Source: an uncultured Clostridia bacterium (GTDB lineage Bacteria; Bacillota; Clostridia; TANB77; CAG-465). From it: DNA of 45,876 nucleotides. The notes beneath the pieces are model-generated. The model made no database searches. It was not told the origin of the DNA and saw only the letters and a program-made list of their open reading frames with translations. Each line of letters opens with the position of its first letter. The stretch's first letter is position 1. A program made the position numbers and the translations under genes. The stretch is from positions 1 through 45,876 of the forward strand of contig CALWOE010000002.1 in the NCBI GenBank assembly GCA_944383035.1, written 5' to 3'. Of this stretch, positions 25,574 through 44,847 are shown piece after piece.

Positions 25574-26377
25574 TTATTTAGTAGAAGCCGATTTCAATAC
25601 TTTAATACTATCATCTTTACTCTTCATATCAGATTTTTCTAAAGCTTCTAATTCCTTTTCTACATTGTATGGAATTCTTACTATATTTATATCAATCATA
25701 TTGAAGTTTTTGGAATTTAAATCACCACTTATAATTCCATAAGATGCAACCGTAGAAAATTTTGATGTTTCATCCAAATATTTATGTTCATTTAACATTT
25801 CTGTAGAATTACCAACACTACCTACGTTAAATATCATTTTGTTTTTATATCTAAATAAATTTGGTGTATGAATATGTCCATAACATATAATATCTGGCTT
25901 TTTAATTTCATCTTTATTACCAAAAAGTTCAGTATTATCAAACATCATTTCATAATCTGTTATGACTCTATCATATCCTTCTTCACCTTTTTTATTAACA
26001 TATATTGGATTAAATATTTTATCTATACCATAAGGAGATGCATGATAGAATCTAACTAAATATCCACTAATATACATATCATAAAAGTAAGGTAAATTCC
26101 TTAAATATTCAAGTTGATTTTTATTTAGCTTATCAGTTGTCCAATATTTTCCTTTTTTTATATCTTCTCTACTTATTAAATAATCACAATTACCCATTAA
26201 AGTCACAAAACAGTTTTTTTGTACTAAATCAACCACATCTTCTGGATGTACACCTTTTACAACCAAATCTCCTAAACATATTATTTTTTCTATATTTCTT
26301 CTTTTTATATCTTTTAAAACTTCCTCTAATGCTGATTTATTTCCATGAATATCAGATATAATTGCTAATTTTTCCAT
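25574..26377 (-). CDS. Calcineurin-like metallophosphoesterase
   Basis: A 267-residue cytoplasmic phosphoesterase of the YfcE-like group. The metal-binding motifs are all present: SDIHGN (residues 8-13), GDLVVKG, GNCD, and GHIHTPN with NVGSVG. The substrate is unknown; relatives act on cyclic nucleotides, dinucleotides or phosphodiesters. It sits 9 nt after folD and 11 nt before the UDPGP gene. Confidence 0.87.
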   Translation of the reverse strand: MEKLAIISDIHGNKSALEEVLKDIKRRNIEKIICLGDLVVKGVHPEDVVDLVQKNCFVTLMGNCDYLISREDIKKGKYWTTDKLNKNQLEYLRNLPYFYDMYISGYLVRFYHASPYGIDKIFNPIYVNKKGEEGYDRVITDYEMMFDNTELFGNKDEIKKPDIICYGHIHTPNLFRYKNKMIFNVGSVGNSTEMLNEHKYLDETSKFSTVASYGIISGDLNSKNFNMIDINIVRIPYNVEKELEALEKSDMKSKDDSIKVLKSASTK

Positions 26378-26386
26378 ACCAATCTC

Positions 26387-27241
26387 CTACTTTATATTAT
26401 TACTTCTTTTTACTAGTTCTATTAAATTTTCTATTAAAGATATTACTGTCATAACTCCAACTCCGCCTGGAACTTTTGTTATATACTCTACATCATCTAT
26501 TACTTCATGTAAATTTACATCTCCATATATTTTACCATCAACTTTGTTTATACCAACATCAATTACAATACTACCTTTTTTTACCATATCTTTTTTTATT
26601 AAATTACAAACTCCCGCTACTACAACTAAAATATCCGCCTCTTTAGTATAATGACCTAAATTTTTTGTCTTACTATGACATATAGTAACAGTTGCATCAT
26701 TATTTAACAGCATGTAAGATACTGGTTTTCCAACAATTTGACTTCTACCAACAATAACTGCATGCTTACCAGATATATCTGCTTTTATAAATTCAAGAAT
26801 AGACATAATTCCCTTTGCAGTACATGGAATTATCATATCTTTACTTTTTAATAAAAGTCTACCTGTATTTATTTCTTTAAATCCATCAACATCTTTTCTT
26901 ACATCTATACTTTCTAATATTTTATGCTTGTCCAAATGTTTATAAAGTGGTAGTTGTACAAGTATTCCGTGTACACTATCATCTTTATTTAATTTATCTA
27001 TAGTATCTAAAATATCATCTGTTGTAACTGTATTGCTAAAATAATATTCTTCTTGTAATATACCTAAACTATCACATAGATTCTTCTTATTTTTTACATA
27101 TATTTTTGAAGATTCATCAAAACTTGCAATAATAACTGCAAGTTTAGGTATTATATTTTTTTTATTTAATATTTTGATTTCTTGTTTTAAGTTTTCTTTT
27201 TTTATTTCAGAAAGTTTTTTTATATCAATTATTTTTCCCAT
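26387..27241 (-). CDS. folD: Bifunctional methylene-THF dehydrogenase/cyclohydrolase FolD (chromosomal copy)
   Basis: Interconverts 5,10-methylene-, methenyl- and 10-formyl-tetrahydrofolate. The 284 residues include the catalytic YVKNKK (Tyr/Lys), VQLPLYKH, DVDGF, VVGRSQIVGKP (NADP loop) and PGGVGVMT. The start overlaps the end of dpaA by 17 nt. A second copy at 38118-38972 inside the dpaB element is identical over about 640 bp and diverges in the first 200 bp or so of the gene. Confidence 0.95.
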   Translation of the reverse strand: MGKIIDIKKLSEIKKENLKQEIKILNKKNIIPKLAVIIASFDESSKIYVKNKKNLCDSLGILQEEYYFSNTVTTDDILDTIDKLNKDDSVHGILVQLPLYKHLDKHKILESIDVRKDVDGFKEINTGRLLLKSKDMIIPCTAKGIMSILEFIKADISGKHAVIVGRSQIVGKPVSYMLLNNDATVTICHSKTKNLGHYTKEADILVVVAGVCNLIKKDMVKKGSIVIDVGINKVDGKIYGDVNLHEVIDDVEYITKVPGGVGVMTVISLIENLIELVKRSNNIK

Positions 27242-28034
27242 AAATTTGTTCCTCTTCTAATATTTCATATATTTTATCCTTTAAATATTTTGCTGCACTA
27301 ACTGGAGATGTTTTAGATGGTATTGCAAGAGATAATTTATAATTTATATTTTGTTTTTTTACTTCAAATGTATCAACACCACCAGGTAAAGATGCAATGT
27401 CTAAAACAAAGCATGTCTTTTTTAACATTTTAATTCTTTTTTTATCTAATATAAGATGTGGAATAGTATTTATGATTATATCCATATCTTTTAGATAAAA
27501 ATCTAGATATTTTAAATCAATGCTTTTATATGAAAAAGCATCAATCAAACTTAAATCTTTAATATTTCTTGCTTCAACATAAATATTAGCTCCAAAACCG
27601 CTTAATTGTTTACAAAGTATTTTACCAATTCTTCCATATCCTAATACTAATATATTTGAATTATTTAACGTAAAATCAGTAGATTCTATTATATCTTTTA
27701 TAGCCCCTTCTCCCGTCGCTATAGCATTTTTCATAGTTACATCTTCAAAGTCTAATAAATCTACATACTTTATGTCATTTTTTTCAAATTCTTTTCTCAA
27801 ATCTTTTGAAATAGAACCAGAAAACAATATTTTATTAGTATTTTTTAGTATTTCTATAATTTGACATACAGAATATTCACTACCATTTAGAAAAACATTA
27901 TCTTTTGAAAATGGAACTTGAGCTATTAAAATATCTGCATTTTTTATATCTGTAATATTATATTTTTTATCCTCTAGTATACCTTTTTTTATATTTTCTA
28001 TTCTTTTGTCATTTCCAAGTATACATATATTCAT
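27225..28034 (-). CDS. dpaA: Dipicolinate synthase subunit A
   Basis: With DpaB, converts the lysine-pathway intermediate into dipicolinic acid in the sporulating mother cell (SpoVFA in Bacillus). The 269 residues include the dinucleotide-binding NILVLGYGRIGKILCKQL (about residues 128-145), NTIPHLILDKK, LDIASLPGGVDTFEVKK and the SpoVFA-typical YKLSLAIPSKTSPVSAAKYL. It is first in the operon with folD. A sigma-K-like promoter lies at 28051-28077. A degraded 3' fragment recurs at 38973-39090. Confidence 0.88.
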   Translation of the reverse strand: MNICILGNDKRIENIKKGILEDKKYNITDIKNADILIAQVPFSKDNVFLNGSEYSVCQIIEILKNTNKILFSGSISKDLRKEFEKNDIKYVDLLDFEDVTMKNAIATGEGAIKDIIESTDFTLNNSNILVLGYGRIGKILCKQLSGFGANIYVEARNIKDLSLIDAFSYKSIDLKYLDFYLKDMDIIINTIPHLILDKKRIKMLKKTCFVLDIASLPGGVDTFEVKKQNINYKLSLAIPSKTSPVSAAKYLKDKIYEILEEEQIYGKNN

Positions 28035-35880: not shown

Positions 35881-37617
35881 TCAAAAAAAATTATCTAATT
35901 TTTGATAAGTTGGTATAAATGCTTTTTTTTGAAGTTCATTTATTTTTGTATTTGAGAAAATTATTTCTACATGATCATTAAAACCGTATATTTTTTCTAT
36001 AAAAATTCTAGCAATATCTCTTTTTGTTTTTAAATCAAATAATTCAAATGTCTTAAACGATAAATCTATTATTTTGCAAACATCTTTAGTAGTTTTTATT
36101 TCAATTAGATCTTTAGTAAAATCTTTAATTTCCTCTTTTTTTATTCTTTTTATTTTTTTATTTAATTCTTCTTTTTCTAGTTTCAACTTCTTTAAGTTTG
36201 TATTTATAATATCAATTATATCTACATCTATATATTTTAATTTACTTATAACATTTTGTATTTCTAAATTCTTTTTTTGAAGTTCTACTTGTATTTTTTT
36301 TAATTCATCATGTTTAAAATTTTCTTCATTTTTTATAGACATATTCATAAGCTCTTTATATATTTCAATATTTGGTACAAATACTTCCTTTATTATTTTT
36401 ATTATTTGATTATCTAGTTTTTCTCCAATTACATTTTTAGAATTACATTTCTGACCACACGACTTTTCTTTTAAAACACATGAATACCTATAATTAACGG
36501 TTCCATCTTTTCTTTTTTTATCCATATTTCGAGGTCTCATATATGATCCACATTCTTTACATTTAATTAGTCCGGCTACAATTGTCTGCTTTTTTGGATA
36601 CCCAGCTGCACGATAACATTTATTTGCATTTTTTTCAAGCAACATTTGAATTGCAATCCATCTTTTTCCTTCAATTATACCTGGATGAAGTCCTACTGCA
36701 TAAATCCAATAATCACTTGATAATTTTTTTCTTTTAGAGGTTTTATGATAAGTTAAAAATCCATAATTACCATCAAATTTATTTCTATTATCTTTTTCAC
36801 AAAAAACATTTATTCCCTTTTTTTTAAAATATTCAATCGCATCATTATCATTTTTTACATAAACTGGATTAGTTAATATCCATTTTAATGTAAATATACT
36901 ATAATGTGCACCTTTTCTTGTTTTTATATCATTGTTTAGTAAATATGTTTCTAACTTAGTTAATGATTTTAATTCTTCAAATTTAGAAACAATTAGATTA
37001 TATATTTTTAATTCTTCATCATTAATAACAAGTTTAGATGCTTTTTTTGTTTTTGTAACTAATCCTTTAACTTCATCGTTTTCACAAATATTCACTTTTT
37101 CAAATCGTTCAACAGAAAACCCCAGAGGACTATCTCCTCCAAGCCAAGTGCCTGTTTTTGCCAGTTCCAACAAATTATCTCTTATTCTTTCTGCAATCAC
37201 TTCTCTTTCAAGCTGTGCAAATACACTAGCAATATACATCATTGCGCGTCCCATTGGTGTGCCAGTATCAAACTGTTCTTTAATTGAAATAAAACTAATA
37301 TTATGTTTTGACAATTCTTCAATGAGTCTTGAAAAATCGGCTATATTTCTACTAATTCTATCTAATCTATAACAAATCAAAACATTTATATATTTTTTTT
37401 GTATTAATTGAAACATTTCTTGAAATTGTGGTCTATCTGTAGTTCCTCCAGAAAATCCTTCATCTTCAAACACTATAATTTCAACATCATATTTATCTTT
37501 AGGATAATGTACTTTTATATAATTTTTACATAATTCAATTTGATTTCCAATAGAATCTCCAATTCCAGTATATTTTGATTTCCTAGAGTATATTATTATA
37601 GTAATTTTTTCTTTCAT
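35881..37617 (-). CDS. Large serine recombinase
   Basis: A 578-residue site-specific recombinase. The resolvase domain starts IIIYSRKSKYTG with the catalytic Ser at residue 14. YRLDRISRN and GRAMMYIASVFAQLEREVIAERI complete the catalytic core. The recombinase domain (about 190-330) contains LKWILTNPVYVKN. The zinc ribbon has CKECGSYMRPRN and CVLKEKSC..C; a coiled coil follows (EELNKKIKRIKKEE). All parts appear intact. The strong AGGAGG site and location inside split dpaB suggest it catalyses excision. No good sigma-A promoter was seen upstream; a weak sigma-E-like one was (37863-37890). Confidence 0.95.
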   Translation of the reverse strand: MKEKITIIIYSRKSKYTGIGDSIGNQIELCKNYIKVHYPKDKYDVEIIVFEDEGFSGGTTDRPQFQEMFQLIQKKYINVLICYRLDRISRNIADFSRLIEELSKHNISFISIKEQFDTGTPMGRAMMYIASVFAQLEREVIAERIRDNLLELAKTGTWLGGDSPLGFSVERFEKVNICENDEVKGLVTKTKKASKLVINDEELKIYNLIVSKFEELKSLTKLETYLLNNDIKTRKGAHYSIFTLKWILTNPVYVKNDNDAIEYFKKKGINVFCEKDNRNKFDGNYGFLTYHKTSKRKKLSSDYWIYAVGLHPGIIEGKRWIAIQMLLEKNANKCYRAAGYPKKQTIVAGLIKCKECGSYMRPRNMDKKRKDGTVNYRYSCVLKEKSCGQKCNSKNVIGEKLDNQIIKIIKEVFVPNIEIYKELMNMSIKNEENFKHDELKKIQVELQKKNLEIQNVISKLKYIDVDIIDIINTNLKKLKLEKEELNKKIKRIKKEEIKDFTKDLIEIKTTKDVCKIIDLSFKTFELFDLKTKRDIARIFIEKIYGFNDHVEIIFSNTKINELQKKAFIPTYQKLDNFF

Positions 37618-37973: not shown

Positions 37974-38117
37974 CTAAAACTCTAAACTTAAGTTATTAAA
38001 TTAAAATAAATTACTTTTTTAATACAAACCACATTCATCATATTAGGATGAAAATATACAACCGACCATATTTTTTAAGCTATATCCTGAGACTTAATAT
38101 TAGAAAATACCAATATT

Positions 38118-38972
38118 CTACTCTATATTATTACTTCTTTTTACTAGTTCTATTAAATTTTCTATTAAAGATATTACTGTCATAACTCCAACTCCGCCTG
38201 GAACTTTTGTTATATACTCTACATCATCTATTACTTCATGTAAATTTACATCTCCATATATTTTACCATCAACTTTGTTTATACCAACATCAATTACAAT
38301 ACTACCTTTTTTTACCATATCTTTTTTTATTAAATTACAAACTCCCGCTACTACAACTAAAATATCCGCCTCTTTAGTATAATGACCTAAATTTTTTGTC
38401 TTACTATGACATATAGTAACAGTTGCATCATTATTTAACAGCATGTAAGATACTGGTTTTCCAACAATTTGACTTCTACCAACAATAACTGCATGCTTAC
38501 CAGATATATCTGCTTTTATAAATTCAAGAATAGACATAATTCCCTTTGCAGTACATGGAATTATCATATCTTTACTTTTTAATAAAAGTCTACCTGTATT
38601 TATTTCTTTAAATCCATCAACATCTTTTCTTACATCTATACTTTCTAATATTTTATGCTTGTCCAAATGTTTATAAAGTGGTAGTTGTACAAGTATTCCG
38701 TGTACACTATCATCTTTATTTAATTTATCTATAGTATCTAAAATATCATCTGTTGTAACTGTATTACTAAAATAATATTCTTCTTGTAATATACCTAAGC
38801 TATCACATAATCTTTTTTTATTTCTTACATATATTTTTGAAGATTCATCAAAACTTGCAATAATAACCGCAAGTTTAGGTATTACATTTTTTTTACTTAA
38901 CATTTTTATTTCTTGTTTTAAGTTTTCTTTTTTTATTTCAGATAGTTTTTTTACATCAATTATTTTTTCCAT
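38118..38972 (-). CDS. folD: FolD, second copy inside the dpaB element
   Basis: A full-length 284-residue copy with all catalytic motifs intact. It differs from the chromosomal FolD by about ten residues in the first 70 (for example KIIDVKKL, KMLSKKNV, RNKKRLC) and by the last residue. About 640 bp of the 3' part is identical in DNA. The upstream bases also match the dpaA-folD junction. It is probably driven by the promoter at 39291-39319. Carrying folate metabolism on such a small element is odd; it may be a passenger duplication. Confidence 0.93.
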   Translation of the reverse strand: MEKIIDVKKLSEIKKENLKQEIKMLSKKNVIPKLAVIIASFDESSKIYVRNKKRLCDSLGILQEEYYFSNTVTTDDILDTIDKLNKDDSVHGILVQLPLYKHLDKHKILESIDVRKDVDGFKEINTGRLLLKSKDMIIPCTAKGIMSILEFIKADISGKHAVIVGRSQIVGKPVSYMLLNNDATVTICHSKTKNLGHYTKEADILVVVAGVCNLIKKDMVKKGSIVIDVGINKVDGKIYGDVNLHEVIDDVEYITKVPGGVGVMTVISLIENLIELVKRSNNIE

Positions 38973-39090
38973 AAATTTGTTCCTCTTTTATTGTTTCATA
39001 TATTTTGTTTTTTTACTTCAAATGTATCAACACCACCAGGTATGGATGCAATATCTAAAACAAATCAAGTCTTTTTTACATTTTAATTTT
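38973..39090 (-). pseudogene. dpaA 3' remnant
   Basis: Matches the last part of dpaA (27242-27436) with an internal deletion of about 75 bp joined at ATATTTTG, plus point changes. It keeps the FEVKK..SLPGGVDT coding segment but no open frame. It shows that the element captured a dpaA'-folD segment of the chromosome. Upstream of it, 39090-39290 holds a 6-codon frame (M-N-T-I-S-G, 39131-39151) after GGAGG; nothing else was recognised. Confidence 0.8.
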
Positions 39091-39290
39091 CTTTGTCTTC
39101 AAAATCTGCAATTTTTCCAATAAAGATGTTCTATCCACTGATTGTATTCATTTGAATTCCTCCTTTTTTTATATCCTCCAAATTAATAATGACGTGAATG
39201 TGATTTTTGCACAAAATAAAATTCTTACATTTGTTAATTTCCAAAAAATGTAGTTACACTTTCTTATATCCAATATAACTGGACAAGTAT

Positions 39291-39450: not shown

Positions 39451-39828
39451 TTATAAAAAATCCTGCCAGCAGATCAGATACGATTTAACAGCCATTGTAA
39501 CTGGTGTATCAGTTATTGCATTTGCTATTTTTGCAAGTGTATTTCCAGTACATGGACATATTAAAATGATATCTACCATATTTTTAGGCCCAACTGGTTC
39601 AGCTTTTACTATACTATCAATTAGATTATTACCTGTGGTTTTTCTTAACATTTCTAAAAACTCTTCTTTTTTATAAAATCTGGTATCAAAATTTTTAGTT
39701 GAATAAGAAACAATTGGTATTACATTTGCTCCCTCTTTTTTTAAATTATTAATTAAGTTTTCTATATGTGAAAAATTACAAAATGAACCAGTTATTGCAA
39801 GTCCAATTCTTAAATCTTTTAATTTCAA
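39451..39828 (-). pseudogene. dpaB: dpaB 5' part (N-terminal half of dipicolinate synthase subunit B)
   Basis: Flavoprotein-like N-terminal half of SpoVFB: KLKDLRIGLAITGSFCNF, VIPIVSYS, ICPCTGNTLAKIANAITDTP and VTMAVK. After the Lys-115 codon the frame runs into the element (SYLICWQDFL) and stops, so the 125-residue product lacks the second half. I choose a TTG start at 39828 because the GGGGG site is 8 nt away and the family starts with MxLKGxxIGxAxTGSF; the GTG at 39837 overlaps that site. It lies after lexA behind a hairpin, with its own sigma-K-like promoter. Confidence 0.92.
39462..39486 (-). repeat. Attachment site at the dpaB 5' end of the element
   Basis: On the minus strand dpaB reaches the AA core (39485-39486), then 5 nt, then ATCTGATCTGCTGGCAGG (39462-39479). 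This is the inverted complement of the other arm with 16/18 matches at the same distance from the core. Confidence 0.82.
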
Positions 39829-39835
39829 AAAAAAC

Positions 39836-39865
39836 ACCCCCTACATTAATATAATATGTAGAGGT
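39836..39865 (-). terminator. lexA terminator overlapping the dpaB ribosome binding site
   Basis: ACCTCTACAT pairs with ATGTAGGGGGT, followed by eight T that run into the dpaB TTG start. Transcripts from lexA would end here or hide the dpaB site. Confidence 0.75.
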
Positions 39866-39878: not shown

Positions 39879-40490
39879 TTATTTGATTTTTCTAAATACA
39901 CCTATTACTTTTCCAATAATCTGTACTCTATCTGAAATAATAGGATCCATACTATCATTTTCTGGTTGTAATCTAATATAGTTTTTTTCTTTATAAAATC
40001 TTTTTACGGTAGCTTCTGAGTCTATCATTGCAACAACTATTTCACCATTATGAGCTGTATTTTGTTTAGAAACAATTAAGTAATCTCCATCATTAATTCC
40101 AGCATTAATCATGCTTTCGCCTTGTACTTTTAATATGAAATTATCATTTCTTAATGAATTTTTATCAAAGAAACTTTCTCCAATTGTAAAATAATCTTCT
40201 ATATTTTCTTGTGCAAGTATTGGTTCTCCAGCTGCAACTTTTCCAACAACTGGAACGCTAATAGTAGATTCTTGACCAATTACTCTGATTGCACGTGTTT
40301 TTAAATCTTTTTTTACAATATAACCTTTTTCTTCTAAACGCCATATATATTGGTGTGCTGAAGATGTTGATTTAAAGCCAAGTGCCCGACATATTTCTCT
40401 TACTGAAGGTGGATATCCAGTAGTACGAACTTGCTGTTTAATATAATCCAAAACCCTTTGTTCTTGAGCATTCAAATTTTTATCACTCAT
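39879..40490 (-). CDS. lexA: SOS repressor LexA
   Basis: Represses DNA-damage genes and cleaves itself when RecA is active. The winged helix has YPPSVREICRALGFKSTSSAHQ-like recognition sequence (residues about 22-45). The cleavage site is VAAGEP. Catalytic Ser is in GESMINAG and Lys in SEATVKRFY. AGAGGG supports the ATG at 40490 (203 residues); the frame open to 40559 includes promoter DNA. A LexA box overlaps its own -35. Confidence 0.95.
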   Translation of the reverse strand: MSDKNLNAQEQRVLDYIKQQVRTTGYPPSVREICRALGFKSTSSAHQYIWRLEEKGYIVKKDLKTRAIRVIGQESTISVPVVGKVAAGEPILAQENIEDYFTIGESFFDKNSLRNDNFILKVQGESMINAGINDGDYLIVSKQNTAHNGEIVVAMIDSEATVKRFYKEKNYIRLQPENDSMDPIISDRVQIIGKVIGVFRKIK

Positions 40491-40555: not shown

Positions 40556-40566
40556 ACAAAAGTTTG
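40553..40566 (-). promoter_or_regulatory. LexA (SOS) box
   Basis: CAAACAAAAGTTTG is a close variant of the Gram-positive LexA site CGAACRNRYGTTYG (arms CAAAC/GTTTG). It overlaps the -35, indicating autorepression. Confidence 0.75.
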
Positions 40567-40615: not shown

Positions 40616-40637
40616 AAATATAAGTATTTCTACTTAT
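40616..40637 (-). terminator. Terminator of the rpe-mtnN-pfkA operon
   Basis: ATATAAGTA/TACTTATAT stem beginning in the pfkA stop codon, followed by T-rich sequence on the minus strand. Confidence 0.8.
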
Positions 40638-41710
40638 ATTCCAAAACAAATTCCCATATCTCTAGCTGTTCTACATATATCATTATCTTCTACATCTAGT
40701 AATCTTGGTTCTCTAACTTTAGGGAATCTAGTCTTAAATAATACGTTCTCTTTTGCTCCAACAATATATCCATACCTATCATCTGCAAGAAGATTTACAG
40801 CATAATCTCCAAGTCTTGCTCCAAGTAATATATCTGATGTACATGGCTCGCCACCACGTTGAATATGACCAAGTACTACTGGTCTAGCTTCATACCCTGT
40901 TTTTTCTTCTATCTCTCTTGCTAGTTTCTCTGCTATTCCACCATATCTTTTTTGCTCAAAACTATCACTTACAACTCTTGCAATAGTCTCTTCTTTTCCT
41001 TTTTCTTTACATGCTTCGGAAGCCGCAATTATAACATATCTTTTTCCAGATTGCATTATTTCTTTGACTCTATTACATACAACATTTAAATTATAATCAA
41101 TTTCTGGTAACAATATAATATCGGCACCAGCTGCAAACCCTCCATACAATGTTAAATAACCAGAAGTTCTTCCCATCATTTCAACTACCATTACTCTTCT
41201 ATGTGAAAAAGCAGTTGTTTTTACTTTTCTAATTGCTTCTGCTGCATTTTCAATAGCTGTTGCAAATCCAATTGTTGGATTACTAGCAGACATATCATTA
41301 TCTATAGTTTTTGGAATACCAATAACTGGCATACCAGCTTCATTAATAACTCTAGCAGAATCAAGTGTTCCATCTCCACCAACTATTATCATACCTTCAA
41401 CGCCTATTTTTCTTAAAGCTCTAATTGATGAAGCTACTTTATCTTCATAATGTTCATGTTTAGCATCTACTGGATAATGAAATGGACATTCTTTATTTGA
41501 AGCTCCAAGAATTGTTCCTCCTTGAGCTTCTATTCCAAATACATCAGATTTATCTAAAACTTTATATCGTTTTTCAACAAAACCAATATATCCGTCATAT
41601 ATTCCAACTACAACCATTCCTTTGTTTATAGCTGACATTACAACTGCTTTTATAACACTATTAAGTCCTGGACAATCTCCACCAGCAGTCATTATAGCAA
41701 TTTTTTTCAT
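40634..41710 (-). CDS. pfkA: 6-phosphofructokinase
   Basis: Phosphorylates fructose 6-phosphate in glycolysis. The 358 residues have GGDCPGLNSVI at the start, GGDGT (111-115), PKTIDND (133-139, catalytic Asp 137), MGRTSGY and LGHIQRGGEP. Gly 114 is the ATP-type residue, whereas Lys 134 is typical of PPi-type and group III enzymes (classical ATP enzymes have PGTIDND). It is probably ATP-dependent of the group III type, but PPi use cannot be excluded. Last gene after mtnN, 15 nt away. Confidence 0.93.
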   Translation of the reverse strand: MKKIAIMTAGGDCPGLNSVIKAVVMSAINKGMVVVGIYDGYIGFVEKRYKVLDKSDVFGIEAQGGTILGASNKECPFHYPVDAKHEHYEDKVASSIRALRKIGVEGMIIVGGDGTLDSARVINEAGMPVIGIPKTIDNDMSASNPTIGFATAIENAAEAIRKVKTTAFSHRRVMVVEMMGRTSGYLTLYGGFAAGADIILLPEIDYNLNVVCNRVKEIMQSGKRYVIIAASEACKEKGKEETIARVVSDSFEQKRYGGIAEKLAREIEEKTGYEARPVVLGHIQRGGEPCTSDILLGARLGDYAVNLLADDRYGYIVGAKENVLFKTRFPKVREPRLLDVEDNDICRTARDMGICFGI

Positions 41711-41725
41711 ATATCATTTACCTCC

Positions 41726-42415
41726 TTAATTTTTACTTAAAAGACTTGTAAATTTATCAATCACTTTATATATTTGTTTTGCAGCATTATCAACAAACAA
41801 TTTATATTCATCTTCATTACCTGTATCTGATATAACTCTAAGCGAACAAAAATCTACATCATTCATATAACATGTATGTGCTATACTTCCACTTTCCATA
41901 TCAGCAGCTAATGCATTAAATTTATTTCTTAACATTTTTTTTGTTTCATCTTTACTTACAAACATATCAGATGTTGCTATTACTCCTTTTTTTGCATTTC
42001 CTACTGATTTTGCAGCCTCATACAATATATTTGATAAGTTTTCATTTGATTTTACATAAACATTATTTACTCCAAATACATATCCTAAATCATATTTTAA
42101 TGCTGTGATATCTGAATCAAATTCAACAGTCTTTGTAGATACAACAAAATCATAAACATTTAAATCTTTGTCAATTGCTCCTGCAACCCCAACATTTAAT
42201 ATTAGATCTATATCATCAAAATTTCTAAGCATTTCTTGTGTGTATATTGCTGAATTTACTTTTCCTTCATAACATGTTCCGATTACTATTTCTACATTAT
42301 TTAAATTACCTGTAAAAAAAGCCATTTTTTTTCTTGTTTTTACACCTAACCAGTCAAGATTATCTTTTATCGTTTCTATTTCTTTTTGCATTGCACCAAT
42401 TATTCCAATTTTCAT
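41726..42415 (-). CDS. mtnN: MTA/SAH nucleosidase
   Basis: Hydrolyses 5'-methylthioadenosine and S-adenosylhomocysteine. The 229 residues have GIIGAMQKEIE, LNVGVAGAID, GVIATSDMFV and the catalytic region ADMESGSIAHTCY with LRVISDTGNED (active-site Asp in SDT). It starts 1 nt after the rpe-alkD stop and is followed by pfkA. Confidence 0.93.
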   Translation of the reverse strand: MKIGIIGAMQKEIETIKDNLDWLGVKTRKKMAFFTGNLNNVEIVIGTCYEGKVNSAIYTQEMLRNFDDIDLILNVGVAGAIDKDLNVYDFVVSTKTVEFDSDITALKYDLGYVFGVNNVYVKSNENLSNILYEAAKSVGNAKKGVIATSDMFVSKDETKKMLRNKFNALAADMESGSIAHTCYMNDVDFCSLRVISDTGNEDEYKLFVDNAAKQIYKVIDKFTSLLSKN

Positions 42416-42416
42416 A

Positions 42417-43832
42417 TTACTTACCCCTTTTTCTAATTTGTTCTTTTTGTTTTAAAGTCATTTTCTCCATAGCATAACTTAACATAATACTTGGTAGTTT
42501 TTTTATCTTGCTATTTTTTAATAAAAAGTTATATACTACTTCATTATCTTTTTTGTATAATTCTCTTAAAACCCATCCAGTAGCTTTTTGATATAAATGA
42601 TAATTTTCGTATAACACTTTATCTAAGACAAATAAAACTATATCTTCTCTTTTTTTGCGAGATAGTGGTAACATTGATACAATTCCAATTCTTTTTATCC
42701 AAACAATATCACTATTTAAATAAAACATTACATGTTTTTTAATTTTTTCATCATCTAAGCACAAATAATATTTTCCAATTATATTTGACCCAACTTCATC
42801 TGTAAGATCCCAATTATCTATATATTTAATATTTTTATTTATAAAATTTACTGCTTCTTCTAATGAATTTATATCTTTTGATAATAAATATTTTTTACAA
42901 TAATTAGAAATACAAAATATTGCAAATCTTCTGTATTCGTGATAAGAAGATGAAATAAAATAATTTAAAATATCAAAATTTGTATATTTATATATCTTAT
43001 TTGAAAGTTTTCTTGTCTTAGGTACTTTTATACCAAGCAAAACATCATTAGCTTTAGATAGTGAAAGTAATTTTCTATCAAATTCTACATTACTATCTTT
43101 TGGAAGATCTTCATTTAACTTTATTAAATTATACAAAAATAATCTATTAAATATACTATCTTCTCTAGAACTAATCTTTGATATGTCACTTCCTATTACC
43201 ATACTATCTATTTTAGTCCTATATATTTTCTCTAAATTTTTATAATTTATACCACCATCTACTTGTATTATTTTTTCTTTATATATCTTTTGTGCAAATT
43301 TTATTTTTTCATTTGTATATTCTATATATTTTTGACCACCAAGTCCTGGTTCAACACTCATTAAAAGTATTTTATCAAAATATTTTTCATATGCTTTTAA
43401 TACACCAACATCTGTGTTTGGTTTTATACTTACACCAATAGTCAAATCAAAATCTTTATTTTTTAAATCTTGTTTTTTATCATATAAATATTTAAGTGTT
43501 TCTTCAAAATTGTCTATTTCATAGTGAATAGTTATACTATTTGCTCCATAATCTAATGCTTTTTTTATATATTTATCTTCTAGTGGATATTTAACCATTA
43601 AATGAACATCTGCATATAAATTATGTTTTTTGGCAATTTTAATATCTTCAATATCAACACCAATATTTTTAACAAATTTATTATCCATTACATCATAGTG
43701 TATTATAACATCAAAAAAATCTATACTACTTAGCTTTATATTATTAATTTTTTTACTAACTTTAGAAATTACATCTATAAAATCGCTTTTATTTTTTGAA
43801 TCTAGTATAGATATAGCAATATTTTTATTCAT
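42417..43832 (-). CDS. Ribulose-phosphate 3-epimerase fused to an AlkD-like DNA glycosylase
   Basis: One uninterrupted 471-residue frame holds two unrelated domains. Residues 1-220 are an Rpe TIM barrel: IIHYDVMDNKFVKN (His45, Asp47, Asp50), ADVHLMV (His77), IGVSIKPNT, LLMSVEPGLGGQKYI, QVDGGI (Asp192) and VIGSDI. Residues about 225-465 are an AlkD-like HEAT-repeat DNA alkylation repair domain: LLGIKVPKTRKLSNKI, YHEYRRFAIFCI, DNWDLTDEVGSNIIG (Trp341, Asp345), WIKRIGIVSML (Arg381) and YQKATGWVLRELYKK (Trp420), matching the known base-flipping residues. There is no Met between 211 and 369, so separate translation is unlikely. The Rpe part is diverged (VKN for VPN). First of rpe-alkD, mtnN, pfkA. 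Confidence 0.88.
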   Translation of the reverse strand: MNKNIAISILDSKNKSDFIDVISKVSKKINNIKLSSIDFFDVIIHYDVMDNKFVKNIGVDIEDIKIAKKHNLYADVHLMVKYPLEDKYIKKALDYGANSITIHYEIDNFEETLKYLYDKKQDLKNKDFDLTIGVSIKPNTDVGVLKAYEKYFDKILLMSVEPGLGGQKYIEYTNEKIKFAQKIYKEKIIQVDGGINYKNLEKIYRTKIDSMVIGSDISKISSREDSIFNRLFLYNLIKLNEDLPKDSNVEFDRKLLSLSKANDVLLGIKVPKTRKLSNKIYKYTNFDILNYFISSSYHEYRRFAIFCISNYCKKYLLSKDINSLEEAVNFINKNIKYIDNWDLTDEVGSNIIGKYYLCLDDEKIKKHVMFYLNSDIVWIKRIGIVSMLPLSRKKREDIVLFVLDKVLYENYHLYQKATGWVLRELYKKDNEVVYNFLLKNSKIKKLPSIMLSYAMEKMTLKQKEQIRKRGK

Positions 43833-43918: not shown

Positions 43919-44833
43919 TTATTTATACTTTCTATCATCTATTTTTTTTAATTTATCATACAAATAAACATATCTTTCATATCTATTTTTATCAATATTG
44001 CTACATTTAACATTTCTTTTTACCAAACATACATCCTCATTTTCTATTACATGTGCACAATCGGAAAATTCACAATTATATTTTGAAAATTCAACATATG
44101 CATGTTTTAATTCTTTATATGGAATATCATATAATTCATAGCTTGAAAAACCTGGAGTATCTAATATATATGTATTATTTTCTAATTCAAATAAAGATAC
44201 TTTTTTTGTTGTATGTTTACCTCTTTTAGTTTTTCTTGCTATATCACCAATTTCTAGCTTTAATGTTTGTACATCGTTATTATTACTTTTATTTTTTAAT
44301 ATAATATTTGTAATACTTGATTTACCAACACCTGAATTGCCAGAAAAAGCTGATGTAGTACCTTCTATCTTTTTCAATAATAAATCTATATTCTCCTCTG
44401 TTTTTGAACTAGTATAAAAAACATCATAACCATTATTTTTATATACTTTGTTTATATATTCAATCTCTTTTTTAGAGTCTTCATCCAAAAGATCTAATTT
44501 ATTTACACAAATAATTGGATTTATATTTTTAAAATAACAAAGTACAAGCTGTTTATCAAGTAGCATATAATCAGGAGTTGGATTTTTAAGTGATAATACA
44601 ATTATTAAATTGTCAATGTTTGCTACTGGTGGTCTAATTAATTCATTTTTTCTTTTATCTATATTTACAATAATATTCTTATCATATTTTTTCTCGACTT
44701 GTACAATATCACCTATAAGTACACTATTTTTCTTTTTTACATTTCCACTTAAAAATGCTATTTTATGCTCATTTGTTTCTAAATCTTTTACAATAAATCT
44801 ATCAAAGAAATTTTCAGTTATTTTACATTTCAT
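43919..44833 (-). CDS. rsgA: Ribosome small subunit GTPase RsgA
   Basis: A circularly permuted GTPase that matures the 30S subunit. The OB fold is at the N-terminus. The G motifs come in permuted order: VNKLDLL (G4), then FSGNSGVGKSS (G1), then LDTPGFS (G3). The zinc knuckle is YNCEFSDCAHVIENEDVC. AGGTGA supports the ATG at 44833. It is 14 nt after lepA, in one operon with it. Confidence 0.95.
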   Translation of the reverse strand: MKCKITENFFDRFIVKDLETNEHKIAFLSGNVKKKNSVLIGDIVQVEKKYDKNIIVNIDKRKNELIRPPVANIDNLIIVLSLKNPTPDYMLLDKQLVLCYFKNINPIICVNKLDLLDEDSKKEIEYINKVYKNNGYDVFYTSSKTEENIDLLLKKIEGTTSAFSGNSGVGKSSITNIILKNKSNNNDVQTLKLEIGDIARKTKRGKHTTKKVSLFELENNTYILDTPGFSSYELYDIPYKELKHAYVEFSKYNCEFSDCAHVIENEDVCLVKRNVKCSNIDKNRYERYVYLYDKLKKIDDRKYK

Positions 44834-44847
44834 TAAATTCACCTGTA

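Follow-up and report, generated by a model that had tools for sequence, protein, structure and literature searches.

In the window, that is, the whole stretch of 45,876 nt under analysis, a single open reading frame joins an Rpe-type epimerase sequence to an AlkD-type one. The locus is composed as follows:

43919 to 44842, minus strand: rsgA (ribosome GTPase), upstream neighbour, conserved in fused and unfused relatives
42417 to 43832 (stop included), minus strand: rpe::alkD fusion ORF, 471 aa, ATG start
43137 to 43832, minus strand: Rpe (TIM-barrel) half, about residues 1-232, Pfam core 43182-43706
43107 to 43163, minus strand: junction helix, residues 224-242, predicted as one continuous helix
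42417 to 43136, minus strand: AlkD-type HEAT-repeat half, about residues 233-471 plus stop, Pfam core 42459-43061
41726 to 42415, minus strand: mtnN-like nucleosidase (Pfam PNP_UDP_1), adjoining 7 of the 25 fusion loci
40634 to 41710, minus strand: pfkA (phosphofructokinase), downstream neighbour, conserved
39879 to 40487, minus strand: lexA, conserved next gene after pfkA, named from its sequence, with a probable start

The start given for lexA is an internal ATG, the ORF being otherwise listed from a TTG at 40559. A perfect TTGACA-17-TATAAT promoter with an extended TG (40555-40527) is located directly upstream of this gene. Elsewhere in the window, two near-identical FolD-like genes (26387-27241 and 38118-38972) lie about 11.7 kb apart, the paired segments being 26376-26675 with 38107-38406 and 27345-27449 with 38999-39103. 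A dpaA-like gene (27225-28034) has a degraded piece alongside the second FolD-like copy, near which are found a short dpaB-like ORF (39451-39837) and a serine-recombinase-like gene (35881-37617), all these names being given by eye. The FolD-like pair and its flanking remnants look like a duplication followed by decay.

Pfam searches with the fusion protein returned Ribul_P_3_epim (PF00834) at residues 43-217 (E=3e-36) and DNA_alkylation (PF08713) at residues 258-458 (E=2.6e-33), and no further convincing domain. The first-pass annotation, which had proposed a single Rpe-AlkD fusion, was thus correct: there is one ORF, both domains are strong and the same architecture occurs in 24 further genomes. 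A GAGG sequence, read by eye, is located 8 nt 5' of the ATG. The absence of an internal start between the halves, also claimed at first pass, holds for ATG and GTG, neither of which occurs between codons 211 and 369. Two in-frame TTG codons, 233 and 265, are found in or near the junction, and neither is preceded by a Shine-Dalgarno-like sequence.

Intact fusions of 448-499 aa were detected in 24 of the 28 genomes of the window's genus, which are small-genome Clostridia, and in one genome of the sister genus g3, so that the proposed search in related genomes did recover the same fusion. The fusion proteins of the other genomes are about 40-51% identical to that of the window. The family was sampled with 36 genomes and the order with 385; no fusion was found in the remaining 349 genomes of the order, and no DNA_alkylation match in a long frame (E <= 1e-24) occurred in its other families. 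Four other strong matches in the order are free proteins of 222-248 aa; Pfam scores had suggested that they belong to type A, the subfamily of the fused half, but this assignment was rejected since the tree groups them with BcAlkD. In the samples of the class and phylum, proteins closely related to the fused half are all free (about 225-275 aa), with no Rpe attached in any of them. A wider scan of genome contigs returned only two fusions, corresponding to the G021 and G022 proteins. The three broad searches covered samples of genomes, and rare independent Rpe-AlkD fusions may exist outside them.

Could the fusion be an artefact, in which an error of sequencing or assembly brought two genes together, or in which an internal start yields two proteins? 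The assemblies are drafts and the two TTG codons are suitably placed. However, occurrence of the same architecture in 24 other genomes excludes chance or a stop lost in this particular assembly, and the junction is gap-free and common to all 25 genomes, which refutes the artefact, and with it a lost-stop or sequencing-error origin, as far as the sequence is concerned. The TTG codons, moreover, lack a ribosome-binding site. The only genome where rpe and alkD appear as two ORFs, G001 (L041, around 1465), does not help this explanation either. From a point inside the junction, its second ORF carries on a G014-like fusion sequence in a different frame; as judged by this continuity, the locus is a frameshifted fusion, either real (natural fission) or due to an assembly error. 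Since G001 was also the sole candidate for an ancestral split rpe/alkD pair, that history was rejected. We therefore consider an artefactual fusion to be extremely improbable, and the question of separate genes with a lost stop, raised at first pass, was settled in favour of a genuine fusion, the two rpe-only members of the genus being nested in the fused clade.

To reconstruct the history of the locus, presence of AlkD behind rpe was mapped onto a tree built from RsgA, Rpe and PfkA. Three changes are required. Most simply, AlkD would have been gained once at the 3' end of rpe before the g1/g3 split and then lost in G019 and G024. The former groups with G027 (support 98/90) and the latter with G001/G014 (95/91), while deep branches inside the genus are poorly resolved. 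In both G019 and G024, rpe lies immediately before pfkA and encodes a free Rpe of normal length, and no alkD remnant was noticed. These two losses, in which Rpe was left in place, argue that a functional link between the halves is not obligatory. Among the loci compared, rsgA (G033, L042), pfkA (G028, L095) and rpe (G029, L096) are each split into two frames, by decay or assembly errors.

The commonest gene order at fusion loci is rsgA-[rpe::alkD]-(mtnN)-pfkA-(lexA). In unfused relatives rpe is likewise located between rsgA and pfkA, and the fusion therefore occupies the ordinary rpe locus. The 99%-complete genome of the window contains a single PF00834 gene, the fusion, together with a transketolase gene, which makes the fusion the likely pentose-phosphate epimerase of the organism. 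Residues Ser8, His45, Asp47, Met49, His77, Met79, Met158 and Asp192 are invariant in the 25 fusions; we take these to be the active-site positions of Rpe (catalytic Asp pair, metal-binding His pair, Ser and Met). The Rpe half matches Rpe structures with a TM to target of up to 0.83 (Foldseek). Its TIGR01163 score, 121.3 bits, is nevertheless below the NCBIfam equivalog cut-off of 212.6. Unfused rpe genes of the same family score 129-138 bits, and those of other families of the order 233-244. Fusion as the cause of this divergence was thus discarded, the unfused Rpe of the family being about as divergent. Compared with known Rpe (PF00834, TIGR01163; e.g. PDB 3OVR, 2FLI), the first half is alike in fold, in the active-site residues checked, in its place after rsgA and in being the only genome copy; it differs by the C-terminal AlkD domain and by belonging to a divergent family below curated cut-offs. 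As judged by homology, fold, residues and locus, it is an Rpe, despite the score below the TIGR01163 cut-off.

Identity of the AlkD half to BcAlkD (PF08713; Bacillus cereus, PDB 3BVS) is no more than about 20-25%, but the HEAT-repeat fold is retained, with TM to target of 0.69 and 0.81 (Foldseek). Residues Trp341, Asp345, Arg381 and Trp420 align with BcAlkD Trp109, Asp113, Arg148 and Trp187, the BcAlkD sequence used for this numbering agreeing with the stretches of the PDB chain that were compared. Together with Arg423, these four residues are invariant in the 25 fusions; the four themselves (catalytic Trp and Asp, Arg, second Trp) do not vary in stand-alone type A either. The residues named in the first-pass annotation (Asp47/Asp192 as the Rpe aspartates, the other four as BcAlkD equivalents) were correctly numbered, and its view that both halves keep their key residues extends to all fusions. 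In BcAlkD, Trp109, Asp113 and Trp187 have been named as catalytic (PMC8626424).

Type A is separated from BcAlkD and the true AlkD of the order by a branch of 2.49 changes per site. Since it falls outside the BcAlkD clade, we refer to it as 'AlkD-type' or 'AlkD-like', a sister subfamily. In addition to this long branch, the fused half differs from BcAlkD in its first helix, continuous with Rpe, and in the helix B/C loop. In the model, helices 224-242, 249-255 and 270-283 occupy the A, B and C cap positions; B is short and the BcAlkD contact residues are not kept, helix B residues Tyr27/Met28 not being conserved in the fusion. Inactive AlkD2 differs from AlkD by the absence of helix B. The four loop residues GGYG are absent from the window protein and present in most fusions and stand-alone relatives.

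The fused half has its closest relatives among the stand-alone type-A proteins (e.g. L078, L085, L006; about 225-275 aa), whose identity to the window protein is about 22-34%. They share the NWDLxD and GWxLRE motifs with it and, unlike it, are free and never Rpe-fused in the genomes searched. L078-L093 and L006 form a phylum-wide AlkD-like subfamily with motifs GGYGEGD, NNWDLxD and PRTMLRYAIEKF, for which there was neither an NCBIfam model match nor a close solved structure.

Several HEAT-repeat paralogues have been described without base excision: AlkD2 is inactive, and for AlkF/AlkG absence of the activity has been reported (PMC4433238). This, combined with the distance of type A from BcAlkD in the tree, casts doubt on a glycosylase. 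The AlkD half might instead be a DNA/RNA-binding module like AlkD2/AlkF/AlkG, localising Rpe or moonlighting as a regulator. Judged by their description (PMC4433238), these proteins belong to a superfamily common to the fused half. However, when a type-A domain profile was compared with PDB sequences, AlkD ranked first (3.6e-19) and EF3068 second, and no match to AlkD2, AlkC or AlkF/G was obtained up to E=1. The catalytic positions, in addition, are all invariant, in the fusions as in stand-alone type A. The profile match and the invariant residues thus favour the predicted glycosylase activity, and we regard a binding module as unlikely.

The fusion is the only intact DNA_alkylation gene in the window's genome, where a Tag-like 3-methyladenine glycosylase and one HhH-GPD protein are also encoded and no Mpg was found. 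Because of the Tag-like gene, the AlkD half is not the only alkylpurine glycosylase candidate there; a role as sole alkylpurine glycosylase was rejected for this genome and could apply at most to relatives having neither Tag nor Mpg. A third subfamily of free AlkD-like proteins, type B, is represented in 5 of 10 non-fusion genomes versus one fusion genome (G027). In this small sample of related members, the distribution gives a hint that the fused domain can take over from another AlkD-type protein. A decayed type-B DNA_alkylation gene with two stops is present in the window's genome (L003 1396-2064; G000 contig 59, 4074-4637), adjoined by transposase-like ORFs.

Constraint on the two halves was estimated by a Nei-Gojobori count on the 14 closest pairs. 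dN/dS was 0.18-0.40 for the Rpe half and 0.12-0.29 for the AlkD half, excepting the AlkD of the nearest pair (0.71, with very few substitutions). Mean identity over all fusion pairs is 53% for the Rpe half and 50% for the AlkD half. The low ratios, the invariant residues and these identities together indicate that both halves are being kept, and, as judged from such substitution counts, both are under purifying selection.

AlphaFold modelling with 25 sequences gave a mean pLDDT of 93.6 and a pTM of 0.91 for the window protein, and 93.4 and 0.90 for a second member. In both models a single helix crosses the joint without interruption (residues 224-242 of the window protein). Where it begins, it aligns with the final helix of unfused Rpe (alpha-8); where it ends, it aligns with the opening helix of stand-alone type-A AlkD (the AlkD helix A position). 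From this helix to about residue 258, the alignment of the 25 members is gap-free. A pTM as high as this in a two-domain protein suggests that the domains are held in a fixed orientation to each other.

Such a joint raises the possibility of functional coupling, in which a rigid helix would make the glycosylase respond to the sugar-phosphate state of the barrel, or in which an Rpe oligomer would multiply AlkD heads on DNA (avidity). The gap-free junction and the high pTM imply a fixed arrangement instead of a floppy tether, the fusion was retained in 24 of the 28 genus genomes, and several pairs show stronger conservation in AlkD than in Rpe. Rpe is oligomeric in other organisms. On the other hand, AlkD was cleanly lost twice inside the fused clade, leaving Rpe of normal length, and we know of no chemistry joining the substrates of Rpe and AlkD. 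Coupling is therefore improbable in our view. Slightly more doubtful still is its widest form, in which the linkerless joint would tie carbon metabolism to DNA repair, with sugar-phosphate or Rpe oligomerisation controlling or multiplying the glycosylase head.

Other reasons for the fusion had been offered at first pass. Co-regulation with mtnN and pfkA does not fit the distribution of these genes: mtnN adjoins only a minority of the fusions and pfkA follows rpe even without AlkD. For removal of sugar-derived DNA damage, and for a moonlighting barrel, we found no evidence pointing there. A LexA-box link was likewise dismissed, as GAACNNNNGTTC sites are not commoner than expected by chance and none is present at the fusion gene.

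Taken together, these results are best explained by one two-headed enzyme, combining the organism's only detected Rpe with an AlkD-type alkylpurine glycosylase (probability of about 0.7). The N-terminal TIM barrel would serve the pentose-phosphate pathway by interconverting ribulose-5-phosphate and xylulose-5-phosphate. The HEAT-repeat domain at the C-terminus would most likely excise positively charged alkylpurines (3-methyladenine, 7-methylguanine) without base flipping and leave the abasic site to base-excision repair, each half acting on its own substrate within a presumably single, uncleaved product. As to its origin, a type-A alkD may have landed, once, behind rpe in the rsgA-rpe-pfkA locus of the g1/g3 common ancestor and been joined in frame; in the models, the last helix of the Rpe barrel and the first AlkD cap helix are one continuous helix. 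The likeliest benefit would be that, with one start site for both, a small genome keeps output of the repair enzyme matched to that of a housekeeping enzyme; co-expression as the advantage is our guess.

The combination of Rpe and AlkD found no description in the open-licence full-text literature. The fusion is real, conserved, of single origin and apparently undescribed: its parts are known, its architecture is new. Fusions as a rule unite steps of a single pathway; this one associates the likely sole pentose-phosphate epimerase with a domain resembling a DNA glycosylase, and it has persisted across a genus in which the fusion proteins are only about half identical. It also draws notice to the uncharacterised phylum-wide AlkD-like subfamily. 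The fusion offers a clean natural test between shared expression only and a real link of metabolism with genome repair, for which the relatives with rpe alone, placed inside the fused clade, are ready-made controls. If metabolic coupling were true, the fusion would represent a new kind of DNA repair enzyme, linked to a metabolite.
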